DNA from: a virus
Reading direction: 5' to 3' (one strand)
DNA: 48,772 nucleotides
Virus record (IMG/VR): IMGVR_UViG_3300007960_000003
Coordinates: 1-48,772 of that record
Shown here: one piece after another, positions 27,105 through 41,636 of the stretch
How the letters are laid out: every line of letters begins with the position of its first letter
How positions within the stretch are numbered: the first letter of the stretch is position 1
Notes under the pieces: model-generated
The model's database searches: none
The model's input: only the letters and a program-made list of their open reading frames with translations
What the model was told of the DNA's origin: nothing
Made by a program: the position numbers and the translations under genes

Positions 27105-27395
27105 TGTTTTATCCTTTTATTGAAAATTTGAATGAGGCTTTCCACCTCAATTGTCAGGTTTGGTATGTATATGCCCATACAGGTCACGTTATGTTACCAT
27201 ACTGGTATCCACTGAACTATTGCTTATATGTCTTAACCATACAGGGATTCGGGCATATAAACTCAATGTTAAAGTAAAGACCGTTGATACAACTAGCCAT
27301 TTAACCATACTTACCACCTATCGGCATATATATTTTCACTTTAACTGTAACCTATTATACAGATACTTTTTCAAAAGTCAAGGATTATTTTAAAT

Positions 27396-27405
27396 AAGGG
27401 TACAT
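27396..27405 (+). promoter_or_regulatory. AARGGTACAT box upstream of primase promoter
   Basis: The sequence AAGGGTACAT lies 20 bases before the TTGTAA -35 element at 27426. The same core and strand relation is seen at 24090 (minus) and 31074 (plus). Confidence 0.5.
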
Positions 27406-27425
27406 AAAATATAATTTATACCCCC

Positions 27426-27454
27426 TTGTAAAATAATTTATAATAGTATATACT
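27426..27454 (+). promoter_or_regulatory. Promoter for the primase-helicase gene
   Basis: -35 TTGTAA (27426-27431) and -10 TATACT (27449-27454) are 17 bases apart. The same hexamers with the same spacer occur at 34275-34303 before the terminase genes. Transcription would begin near 27461, giving a ~100-base leader that includes two GTATGG copies and the hairpin at 27512-27558. Confidence 0.65.
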
Positions 27455-27511
27455 AAATATGCTTTATTGTGGACTAATTAACCCTTTAAAGTTATCACCA
27501 TACTGTATGTC

Positions 27512-27558
27512 GCCCTCGCTAGATGTATAGTATGGTTTTCTTTTAGCGAGATGAGGGC
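27512..27558 (+). promoter_or_regulatory. Leader hairpin that may hide the primase ribosome site
   Basis: GCCCTCGCT (27512-27520) can pair with AGCGA (27545-27549) and GGGC (27555-27558), a 9-bp stem with a 5-base bulge. Alternative 6-bp pairings (CTCGCT/AGCGAG and GCCCTC/GAGGGC) are mutually exclusive. The GAGGG ribosome site (27553-27557) lies within the stem, so it could be blocked. An inner inverted pair (ACCATACT/AGTATGGT) competes with it. Confidence 0.55.
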
Positions 27559-27563
27559 ATTAC

Positions 27564-36054: not shown

Positions 36055-37488
36055 ATGGCTATTGATGAACAACATAAACAGTATAAGAAGTATTTTCCTA
36101 TATGGAAAGAAATAACAGATATTATAAACCAAGAAAATTTAAAAGATCTTTTAATACCTGTTGAGTCTATATATGGTTCTACAAAGAAAACAAATGTAAA
36201 AAGTAGGAATGATGCTTACCAAGAAAGAGCAGTCTTTTATGCTATTACTGCTAATACTGTAAAGGGTCAAATAGGTTTAATGTTTAGTAAAGAACCTAAG
36301 TTAGAATTACCGTCTCAATTAGAGTATGTTAAAACTAATATTGATGGTCGTGGTAATTCTATTTTTCAACAATCTAAGGCAGTAGCAAAAAATGTAGACG
36401 CTATAAGTCGCGAAGGATTATATACAAGTTATCCTATTACAAATGGGGAAGTTTCTCAAGCTGATATTAATTCTGGTGCAGCTGTTGCTACTATACAAAG
36501 AATTACAGCACAACGGATTATTAATTGGCGTGAACAATCTTTTGGAGCTAAAATAAAACTAGTATTTCTTACATTTACTGAAATTAAAGAAGAAATGCAA
36601 GAAGATTACACTATTAAAGAAACTCAACAAATACGTGAATTATTTTTAGATACAACAGGTGAAAATCATATTTATAAAGAACGTGTTTGGAGTAAAACAG
36701 ATAATGAAAATTGGGTAAAAGGAGAAGATATAACTCCAAGAGATAAAAACGGTAAACTATTTGATGAAATTCAATTTGATTTTATTGGGGCTGAAAATAA
36801 CGACAGTGACGTTGATGAACCGAATCAATTAGCTATTGCTAGACTAAATAAAGCTCATTTTAGAAACAGTGCTGAATATGAAGATAATGTTTGGTGGATT
36901 GGTCAGTCTCAACCTTGGATGTCAGGAATTACACAAAACCATATTAATTTAATGAAAGAAAATAATATGTACGTTGGTTCTAGAGAATTGATGGGTGTAC
37001 CTCCTGGGGAACAATTTGGAATAGATGGTGCCCCAGAAAACCCATTGGTTCGCCAAGCTATGTTGGATAAAGTAGATATGATGGTTAGTTTAGGAGCACA
37101 ACAAATCCAAGTTGGAGGAGTAGCTAAAACAGCCACCCAAACAAACTATGAAAAAGGAACTCAATATTCTGTAACTTCAATGGTCGCTAATAATGTAAGT
37201 TCTGCTTACACTTCAGCATTAGCAAGAATGGAACGATTTATGTTAGGGGAAGTTACTGGAGAATCTTTATATCAAATAGATACTGATTTTATAAAACCAG
37301 ATGCGGATCCTGCTTTATTAAAAGAAATAGCTTCTCAATGGCAAGTTGGAGCAAGGCCGACATTTGATTATATTCGTAGAATGAAAGAATTAGGTGAATT
37401 TGATAAGGACAAATCAGATGAAGATTATTTAGATGAGTTATTTAGAGAAGATATGCCGAATTTAGAAAACACTAATGGGGAAGAGTAA
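36055..37488 (+). CDS. Portal protein (DUF4055-like)
   Basis: A 477-residue protein, soluble, with the typical portal arrangement of helices and an early 'RNDAYQERAVFYAITANTVKGQIG' block (about 51-75) of the DUF4055 type. It forms the dodecameric ring at the capsid vertex and docks TerL. It lies directly after terL and couples to the next gene by TAATG. Confidence 0.85.
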   Translation: MAIDEQHKQYKKYFPIWKEITDIINQENLKDLLIPVESIYGSTKKTNVKSRNDAYQERAVFYAITANTVKGQIGLMFSKEPKLELPSQLEYVKTNIDGRGNSIFQQSKAVAKNVDAISREGLYTSYPITNGEVSQADINSGAAVATIQRITAQRIINWREQSFGAKIKLVFLTFTEIKEEMQEDYTIKETQQIRELFLDTTGENHIYKERVWSKTDNENWVKGEDITPRDKNGKLFDEIQFDFIGAENNDSDVDEPNQLAIARLNKAHFRNSAEYEDNVWWIGQSQPWMSGITQNHINLMKENNMYVGSRELMGVPPGEQFGIDGAPENPLVRQAMLDKVDMMVSLGAQQIQVGGVAKTATQTNYEKGTQYSVTSMVANNVSSAYTSALARMERFMLGEVTGESLYQIDTDFIKPDADPALLKEIASQWQVGARPTFDYIRRMKELGEFDKDKSDEDYLDELFREDMPNLENTNGEE

Positions 37489-37919
37489 TGACAACCATTA
37501 CTTATAAAGATGGTGTAATCGCTTATGATTCTTTAGCTGTTAGCGATATTACAATAGTAGATAATAATTTTGATAAACATATTGAAAAAGATAATGTTCA
37601 TTTTTTCTTCTCAGGATGTGTTGCAGATATAACTAAACTTATAGAATGTTATTTTGGAGCAAAACATAAAATAAATAGCAATTCATCAGCTATTGTCTAC
37701 GATAAAAACGATTTGTTTATTATAGGATTTGGTAAAAATGGTAATTATTATTGTGACCCAGAACGATTAGATAACTGTATCGCTATAGGTTCCGGTACTG
37801 ATCACGCTTTAACGGCTATGGATTTAGGTTGTTCTGCAAAGAAAGCTATAAAAATGGCTGCAAAAAGAGATACTTGTACAGGTGGTAAAATTAGAAAGTT
37901 TAAAATAAACGGAATATAA
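37488..37919 (+). CDS. HslV/proteasome-like Ntn hydrolase, possible head maturation protease
   Basis: A 143-residue protein with the start of a proteasome beta/HslV protein: Met-Thr-Thr-Ile, so removal of Met exposes catalytic Thr2; Asp14 ('YDS') and Lys30 sit where Asp17 and Lys33 occur in HslV, and 'GSG' is at 101-103. The 'GTDHALTAMDLGCSAKKAIKMAAKRD' block matches HslV's C-terminal helices. It lies between portal and MuF, and no other prohead protease is visible, so it may process scaffold or capsid. The head role is inference. Confidence 0.7.
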   Translation: MTTITYKDGVIAYDSLAVSDITIVDNNFDKHIEKDNVHFFFSGCVADITKLIECYFGAKHKINSNSSAIVYDKNDLFIIGFGKNGNYYCDPERLDNCIAIGSGTDHALTAMDLGCSAKKAIKMAAKRDTCTGGKIRKFKINGI

Positions 37920-39476: not shown

Positions 39477-40265
39477 ATGAATAAAAAATTTATAGCAATT
39501 GCAAGACCACAAGACCCATATTCAAAAGATTGGTTAGATTATAATCGTCAAAACCCACATCTTCATAGAAGTGTTGGAGGGGATGGGGATAACGAAGGTA
39601 CTCCGGACATTAAAGAGTTACAAGATACCATAGATAAAATGCAAACTAGTATGGATACATTAAAAACTCAAAATGAAAATTTACAAGCATCTAACCAGAA
39701 ATGGGAAGATAAACATAATGAAGCTGAAAAGCATCGTAAGAAACAAGAAAAAGAAGCACAAGAAAAAGCTGATGAAGCAGCTAGAGCCTCTGGGGATATT
39801 GAAGCATTAACAAATTCTTGGACTACTAAGTATAATGAGTTAGAAACTTCTTCAGGTGAAGAAATTAGTAGTTTAAAAAATATTATTAAAAATTTAACTG
39901 TTACAGCCACAGCAGAATCAATAGCTTCTAAAATTGCCATGGAAGGATGTGCTGAAATTATTCAACCCCATATTGAAAGAAGATTATACGGTGAAATTAA
40001 AGATGGTCAAGCACTAACTAAGGTATATAGTGAAGATGGTAAAGTATCTGCATTAACTATAGATGATTTAGCTAAAGAATTTTCTGAAAATAAAAAATTT
40101 GAAAAAGTAATGCGAGGCAGTTCTGCTTCAGGTGGTGGAGGTACTTCCGAAAGTGGTGGAGGAGTATCTGGCGACAATGTTATTAAACGTTCTGAATTTG
40201 ATAAAATGAACCCAACTCAACAGGCATTACACATGTCTAAGAAAGGAGCTGGAGTAGTAGATTAG
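39477..40265 (+). CDS. Scaffold protein
   Basis: A 262-residue protein. An early acidic segment is followed by a long coiled coil rich in Lys/Glu/Gln (residues about 45-125), a flexible Gly/Ser region (about 214-235) and a short C-terminus 'NPTQQALHMSKKGAGVVD' that may dock to capsid. It precedes the capsid gene as is usual for P22/phage scaffold proteins. No protease motif is present. Confidence 0.82.
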   Translation: MNKKFIAIARPQDPYSKDWLDYNRQNPHLHRSVGGDGDNEGTPDIKELQDTIDKMQTSMDTLKTQNENLQASNQKWEDKHNEAEKHRKKQEKEAQEKADEAARASGDIEALTNSWTTKYNELETSSGEEISSLKNIIKNLTVTATAESIASKIAMEGCAEIIQPHIERRLYGEIKDGQALTKVYSEDGKVSALTIDDLAKEFSENKKFEKVMRGSSASGGGGTSESGGGVSGDNVIKRSEFDKMNPTQQALHMSKKGAGVVD

Positions 40266-40302: not shown

Positions 40303-40330
40303 TTGACTTTTCTAATTTTTTATTTTAAAA
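40303..40330 (+). promoter_or_regulatory. Possible promoter for the capsid gene
   Basis: TTGACT (40303-40308) in the context 'tacttgactttt', the same as at 31101, with an AT-rich but poorly matched -10 region (TTTAAA/TTAAAA near 40324-40330, spacer 15-16). The start would fall near 40337, just before the structured leader. Confidence 0.45.
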
Positions 40331-40355
40331 TTTGGGTAACGTAAAAATTAGAAAA

Positions 40356-40441
40356 GGGTTAAGAGAGTAACTTAACCCCGATAGGTCGGTGACCTTCTAA
40401 TGATATTTAATTCATTGGTAGGCATCGACTTTTTATTGCCT
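40356..40441 (+). promoter_or_regulatory. Structured RNA leader before the capsid gene
   Basis: Helices seen by eye: GGGTTAAG/CTTAACCC (40356-40363 with 40371-40378, perfect 8 bp); CGAT/ATCG (40379-40382 with 40424-40427) closing two hairpins, AGGTC/GACCT (40383-40387 with 40391-40395) and CTAATGA/TCATTGG (40397-40403 with 40412-40418, one G-U). The closing stem and two hairpins form a three-way junction. An alternative AGGCA/TGCCT pair (40420-40424 with 40437-40441) excludes the closing stem, which would allow switching. No U-tract follows, so it is not a simple terminator. Confidence 0.55.
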
Positions 40442-40472
40442 CCATTTTATAATTTAATAAGAGGTAATAAAA

Positions 40473-41636
40473 ATGGCTAATACTATCACAGGCTTAACGG
40501 TTAGTATTTATAATGCTTTAGATGTCGTATCCCGTGAATTAACAGGTTTAATTCCTTCTGTTACTTCCGATATGACGTATGATCGTGCTGCCGTTGGTCA
40601 AGCAGTAACTTCTCCAGTTGCTCCAGCAGCAACAGCCTCCGATATCACTCCAGCAGTAAACCCTCCAGACGACGGTGATCAAACAATTGGTACAACAACC
40701 ATGACGATTTCTAAGTCACGTCGTGTTCCAGTTCGTTGGAATGGTGAAGAACGTCTAGCACTAGATAATAATGGTGCTCAATATAATGTTATTTTACGTG
40801 ATCAATTTGCTCAAGCAATGCGAACATTAGCCAATGAAGTAGAAACTGATCTTGGTGCTTTATACGTTGGTGCTTCACGTGCTTATGGTACAGCAGGAAC
40901 AACACCTTTTGCAACAGCAGGTGATTTCACAGATGCTTCTTTTCTTGCTAAAATATTAAAAGATAATGGTGCTCCAAATACTGGTAATAGTATGGTATTG
41001 GATACAACAGCAGGGGCGAATCTTGTTGGTAAACAGTCACGAGTCGATATTGCTGGTCAAGACGATATGCTTCGTAGAGGTGTCTTATTGGATACGGCTG
41101 GTTTTGCTATTCGTGAATCAGCAGGTATTCAAACTCCAGCAGTTGGTGATGCAGCTAGTTATGTTACTGATACAGGAGCAACTTATACTGTTGGAACAAC
41201 TACTATTCATGTGGATACTGGGACAGGTGATGTCTTAGCAGGTGATATAATTACTTTCGCAGGTGACACTAATAAATATGTTGTTGCTACTGGATTCACT
41301 GGTGATGGTGATAATGATGTTGTTATTGCTAAACCTGGATTAAGAGAGACACTTGCGGATGGTGTTGCTATGACAGTTGTTGCAGCAGCAACTAGAAGTA
41401 TGGGTTTCGCTCGTTCGGCTATTGCATTAGCAACTCGTATTCCAGCTTTACCTAAAGATGGAAGCGGTCGTGAAGTCGATATGGCTGAAGACAGAATGAT
41501 AGTTACAGATCCTAATTCAGGATTATCCTTTGAAATTGCTATGTACTTACAATACAGACAGATCCAGTATGAAGTATCATTAGCATGGGGTCAAGTGGTC
41601 ACTAAGCCTGAACATCTAGCGTTGCTCCTTGGTTAA
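40473..41636 (+). CDS. Major capsid protein (P22 coat-like)
   Basis: A 387-residue protein with HK97-type fold features of the P22 coat family: an N-arm, a conserved 'SKSRRVPVRWNGEER' (about 79-93) near the E-loop, a central beta-rich insertion (about 225-300), and a conserved C-terminal 'YLQYRQIQYEVSLAWGQVVTKPEHLALLLG'. GC content and codon use are higher than in neighbours, as expected for a highly expressed gene. It follows the scaffold and the structured leader. A strong GAGG ribosome site precedes it. Confidence 0.88.
   Translation: MANTITGLTVSIYNALDVVSRELTGLIPSVTSDMTYDRAAVGQAVTSPVAPAATASDITPAVNPPDDGDQTIGTTTMTISKSRRVPVRWNGEERLALDNNGAQYNVILRDQFAQAMRTLANEVETDLGALYVGASRAYGTAGTTPFATAGDFTDASFLAKILKDNGAPNTGNSMVLDTTAGANLVGKQSRVDIAGQDDMLRRGVLLDTAGFAIRESAGIQTPAVGDAASYVTDTGATYTVGTTTIHVDTGTGDVLAGDIITFAGDTNKYVVATGFTGDGDNDVVIAKPGLRETLADGVAMTVVAAATRSMGFARSAIALATRIPALPKDGSGREVDMAEDRMIVTDPNSGLSFEIAMYLQYRQIQYEVSLAWGQVVTKPEHLALLLG

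Follow-up and report, generated by a model that had tools for sequence, protein, structure and literature searches.

A probable five-segment attenuator in the RNA leader of a P22-type phage coat gene

What occupies the long gap between the scaffold and coat genes of this virus? In the window, the whole 48,772-nt stretch of DNA analysed here, a gene for a head scaffolding protein is followed by the gene for a major capsid (coat) protein of the P22 type, and the 207 nt between them house a leader element (Table 1). The original prediction described this element as an RNA built around a three-way junction, with an alternative pairing able to break its closing stem, that might act as a switch on coat protein output. 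A switch-like coat-gene leader is well supported by comparison across twelve leaders, but the best-supported architecture is a chain of five segments (a to e) and not a three-way junction. We consider it likely that the leader is a two-state attenuator gating both transcription and translation of the coat gene.

The individual pairings first proposed can all be located: hairpin 1 and the a:b helix (Table 1), a helix AATGA/TCATT (40399-40403/40412-40416), the closing-stem letters CGAT/ATCG (40379-40382/40424-40427) and the alternative pairing AGGCA/TGCCT (40420-40424/40437-40441). It had been missed that the same bases make an interrupted helix of 18 pairs with a U-run at its end. The most stable fold has a and b opened and paired with c in this helix, while d and e form a 12-bp helix that covers the Shine-Dalgarno sequence of the coat gene. 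Because UGCCU also belongs to the anti-Shine-Dalgarno strand, the element extends to 40472, beyond the end originally assigned to it. In the alternative fold, hairpin 2 (a:b), which competes with the terminator helix, is combined with c:d, the AGGCA of segment c pairing instead with the UGCCU of segment d; this is the alternative pairing noticed at the outset, and strand permutation identifies it as a conserved helix of the switch. Such a fold would exclude the terminator, enclose the U-run within a loop and leave the Shine-Dalgarno sequence free.

Table 1. Features of the scaffold-coat gap and its flanking genes in the window, with sites of motif R1 in related records
Feature	Position	Strand	Details
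Head scaffolding protein gene (upstream)	39477..40265	+	phrog_206, E 6.5e-37
Candidate sigma-70 promoter	40303..40331	+	TTGACT-17-TAAAAT
Hairpin 1	40356..40378	+	perfect 8-bp stem GGGTTAAG/CTTAACCC, arms 40356-40363/40371-40378
Hairpin 2 (segments a and b)	40383..40395	+	AGGUC-GGU-GACCU, loop GGU; a 40383-40387, b 40391-40395
Inner hairpin (terminator tip)	40397..40418	+	CUAAUGA/UCAUUGG
Segment c (terminator 3' arm)	40420..40429	+	AGGCAUCGAC
U-run	40430..40434	+	UUUUU, directly 3' of terminator helix
Segment d (anti-Shine-Dalgarno strand)	40431..40442	+	UUUUAUUGCCUC, overlaps U-run
Segment e (coat Shine-Dalgarno and spacer)	40461..40472	+	GAGGUAAUAAAA, 12-bp pairing with d
Major capsid (coat) gene, P22 coat type	40473..41636	+	AUG at 40473; phrog_283, E 5.6e-90; PF11651, E 5.9e-9
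R1 motif sites, L520	10354-10402, 11186-11234
R1 motif sites, L518	2319-2367, 3148-3196
R1 motif site, L542	4925-4973

The modelled energies are -34.3 kcal/mol for the fold with terminator and Shine-Dalgarno helix (OFF) and -16.0 kcal/mol for the alternative (ON), and the predicted pair probabilities of the OFF state are near 1, so that the terminator state is strongly favoured. The ON fold is about 18 kcal/mol less stable, and switching must therefore be kinetic or factor-driven. Compared with dinucleotide shuffles, folding is unusually stable both for 40354-40443 (z = -5.9) and for 40383-40472 (-35.3 kcal/mol, z = -7.6). The region had also been called richer in GC than its surroundings, which is true of the flanking parts of the gap (39.5% versus 15.6% and 16.1%) but not of the coat gene (41.3%). 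In line with its proposed non-coding nature, it holds no open reading frame (ORF) of at least 60 aa, and no conserved short leader peptide was noticed by eye.

The candidate promoter lies in an AT-rich stretch, where the match alone is not significant (p 0.14); near-perfect consensus promoters occur at the equivalent place in L171, L291, L447 and other relatives. A perfect 14-bp inverted repeat, CTTTTCTAATTTTT/AAAAATTAGAAAAG (40307-40320/40343-40356), flanks its -10 hexamer; it might serve as an operator, or fold into a hairpin in read-through transcripts. Elsewhere in the window, a homologue of HslV-type peptidases (phrog_1040, 37488-37919) sits in the head cluster between portal and scaffold, and four copies of CCATACWG, possibly iterons or operators, lie within 331 bp (27175-27560) between divergent genes ahead of a primase-like gene, the window as a whole holding seven copies where 1.8 are expected. 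A hairpin with a U-rich tail (z -2.2) precedes the same primase-like gene.

Relatives of the coat protein were taken from viral contigs, phage records and bacterial genomes, yielding 138 distinct coat leaders of at least 60 nt. Eleven further leaders have the window's scheme (L461, L063, L100, L171, L291, L432, L446, L447, L055, L422 and L473); their coats share 49-62% identity with that of the window, and the leader letters have diverged, with compensating changes such as GUCGGUG/CAUCGAC in the window, GUCAGUG/CACUGAC in L461 and GUCCGUG/CGCGGAC in L100. Three of the eleven (L055, L422 and L473) keep the scheme with another hairpin 2 (GGG-AGAAGCR-CCC or similar) that lacks a C(NNN)G loop. In each of the twelve leaders the terminator helix is followed by four or more U in a row, and folding z-scores ranged from -5.5 to -9.9 in nine.

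The covariation analysis of homologous coat leaders suggested with the original prediction was carried out, and helices a:b, a:c, c:d and d:e covary. Among nine aligned leaders, 98.6% of a:c columns were paired against 85.3% after shuffling of partners (0/500), and 92.9% of a:b columns against 77.0% (0/500). The same bases thus covary both as a:c and as a:b, and one strand held to two partners is the mark of a switch. We also compared the duplex energy of matched strands with that of strands exchanged between phages (20,000 swaps) in the twelve leaders, which were chosen by eye ahead of testing and some of which are related and so not independent. Matched a:c strands gave -198.7 versus -141.6 kcal/mol when permuted, c:d strands -144.6 versus -116.2 +/- 6.9 kcal/mol and d:e strands -174.8 versus -101.3 kcal/mol, the matched value being reached in 0 of 20,000 swaps each time. 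Two control pairs that the scheme does not predict, c:e (12,236/20,000) and a:d (1,209/20,000) in the same leaders, argue against base composition as the cause of the matches. Of the three helices c:d is the least secure: it was marginal (239/5000) when nine leaders were used and d was delimited where the terminator helix ends, and the 0/20,000 result used twelve leaders and a segment d starting 3 nt into the U-run, both of which changes matter.

Sequence comparison shows helices a:b, a:c, c:d and d:e, their mutual exclusion and the U-run. The leader combines a stable helix followed by a U-run and conserved alternative helices (a:b and c:d) that exclude this terminator, as expected of a transcriptional attenuator, with a conserved d:e helix over the Shine-Dalgarno sequence of the controlled gene, as expected of a translational one. 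This arrangement is uncommon: among 195 gene starts preceded by a long gap, drawn from 23 phage genomes or fragments, nine combine a terminator and U-run with a paired Shine-Dalgarno sequence, and four of these nine are coat starts in carriers, one of them the window. Acinetobacter phage qsb1, the nearest cultured relative, has a coat 63.5% identical to that of the window and a 12-nt gap without the leader. On a quick coat tree the leader classes are scattered, with about six changes for the window's class, a pattern that would fit a single old element lost in places just as well as several separate gains and does not tell the two apart.

Structured leaders are not confined to the window's class. 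Among coat relatives, leaders with two or three hairpins are frequent in which one apical loop recurs within a phage but changes from phage to phage, the loops being C(UAG)G, C(UGC)G, C(AGC)G, C(GGG)G, C(AGG)G, C(AGU)G and C(CGU)G; a repeated identical loop was present in 21 of 102 non-redundant coat leaders, where shuffles gave an expectation of 0.3. Hairpin 1 has such a C(NNN)G loop in L461 and L100 and lacks it in the window, where hairpin 2 is single-copy, no second copy of the window's loop hairpin having been found. A GC-rich class has three hairpins of this kind (L002, L003, L006, L008, L044, L047, L058, L059, L065 and others), and in most of its members CUCCGG in the second hairpin is complementary to CCGGAG at the Shine-Dalgarno site. 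Leaders of a third class carry a pair of GGAU-loop hairpins, with two-sided changes at 12 of 15 pairs and a covariation score of 0.552 versus 0.279 when shuffled (0/500). A model of these tandem GGAU hairpins (R1, 49 nt) matched upstream of scaffold and coat in many siphophages with P22-type coats (Table 1 lists some sites; there are others). Klebsiella phage 5 LV-2017 and an E. coli phage are examples with the motif ahead of both genes, and in HK639 it precedes scaffold only; the window gave no R1 match at E up to 1.

Other relatives (L177, L261, L391, L396, L400, L452 and L463) have a plain terminator-like hairpin and U-run no more than about 70 nt from the coat start codon, with no visible antiterminator; blocking of read-through from scaffold to coat may be a common theme. 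In some relatives (L012, L038, L040, L213, L265-L282 and L288) an N-terminal extension resembling a signal peptide (MKK or MKS and a hydrophobic stretch) appears in frame with the coat, just upstream of the coat match. Searches of Rfam 15 at gathering score returned no match for the window and 17 related loci, and at a relaxed threshold gave only chance-level matches for the window, L318 and L065 leaders; the R1 motif leaders tested were likewise without an Rfam match. No description of these leaders was found in the open-access papers searched.

Could a simpler device account for the window's leader? A constitutive terminator with a Shine-Dalgarno hairpin would insulate the coat gene against transcription arriving from upstream and set a fixed level of expression without any switching. 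The strong preference for the terminator state is what such a device would show, and the plain-looking terminators just before the coat start in relatives such as L177, L261, L391 and L396 point the same way. Yet a fixed terminator would not need a:b and c:d, both of which are kept by compensating change, and a lock that cannot be opened is hard to reconcile with coat normally being a very abundant late phage protein; we regard this explanation as unlikely. The three-way-junction aptamer of the original prediction is a most improbable account, for although its four helices can be drawn, the closing stem has a predicted pair probability of 0.0, the whole junction reaches -7.8 kcal/mol against the -34.3 kcal/mol of the terminator and Shine-Dalgarno helix, and neither closing stem nor junction was seen on inspection of the other eleven leaders.

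An antitermination site resembling nut or put, in which RNA polymerase, once modified by the RNA or by a protein bound to it, ignores local and later terminators, would explain other features. As in lambda nutboxB and HK022 put, phage hairpins with phage-specific loops lie just after the promoter, and like boxB the loops are the same within a leader and differ between phages. Here, however, the hairpin strand is itself part of the terminator, nothing resembling boxA was noticed, the leader is confined to the coat gene, and polymerase modification needs neither c:d nor the conserved Shine-Dalgarno helix d:e, so that we think this reading quite improbable. Chance folding, or an element acting at the level of DNA (an operator or palindrome) with no RNA role, might be argued from the 14-bp inverted repeat around the -10 hexamer; against it stand the folding z-scores of -5.9 to -7.6, the strand-specific U-run and Shine-Dalgarno pairing, and covariation in twelve leaders. 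The twelve-leader permutation has already largely refuted this possibility, and we hold it to be very unlikely.

The attenuator that we favour would be OFF in its ground state. By default, a and b would pair with c in an intrinsic terminator ending at UUUUU and d would pair with the Shine-Dalgarno segment e; RNA polymerase would halt at the U-run, the ribosome site would be blocked, and coat transcription and translation would both be held down. For coat to be produced, something would have to favour hairpin a:b; with a:b formed, c:d would pair, the terminator would be blocked and the Shine-Dalgarno sequence released. We infer that the terminator works, that the RNA starts at the candidate promoter and that hairpin a:b is kept in place by a trans-acting factor, which would turn the leader ON at the proper moment. 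The recurrence of one loop among the hairpins of a related leader hints that the loop is what such a factor would recognise. Across 23 genomes or fragments, the ORF families with the widest distribution among carriers encode head and neck proteins; a non-structural family common to all carriers was not found, ORF calling in GC-rich records being crude. Our best guess for the factor is therefore a phage head protein (scaffold or coat), and next a host RNA-binding protein; the control by coat or scaffold binding suggested with the original prediction would be compatible with this distribution. Phage-encoded CsrA was considered as a general factor and rejected, being present in only 1 of 31 related records; the window's loops (GGU and AGAGUAA) are also not of the CsrA-type GGA kind.

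In its logic, and in logic only, the window's leader seems closest to the RAT/terminator leaders of bgl, sac and lic, in which a small hairpin likewise overlaps the 5' arm of a terminator and BglG or LicT bound to the hairpin prevents termination. To this the window would add a translational lock: its chain continues into the conserved c:d and anti-Shine-Dalgarno:Shine-Dalgarno helices, and the gene concerned is a phage coat gene. Attenuators of the trp type (1:2 and 3:4 versus 2:3) likewise string together helices that exclude one another and finish with a terminator and U-run, but the window has five segments, its last pair hides the Shine-Dalgarno sequence of the controlled gene, and no leader peptide was noticed. 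Phage P22, whose coat has the same fold, offers a parallel in the post-transcriptional control of head genes, its scaffold being under autogenous control; P22 itself, with 13 nt between genes ahead of scaffold and no gap ahead of coat, is without such a leader.

How tailed phages set the proportion of scaffold to coat is an old question, which the specific alternative helices now make directly testable. Structured leaders precede the coat gene and, in many relatives, the scaffold gene as well; cultured Escherichia and Klebsiella phages are among these relatives. It is a tentative idea, and one we rate as rather less than probable, that the head-assembly genes of a large group of tailed phages with P22-type coats are governed by dedicated RNA switches that sense free scaffold or coat protein, so that coat synthesis is licensed by the state of assembly, the form in the window coupling control of transcription with that of translation. 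The window's leader would then be a compact natural device, with one five-segment chain gating both.
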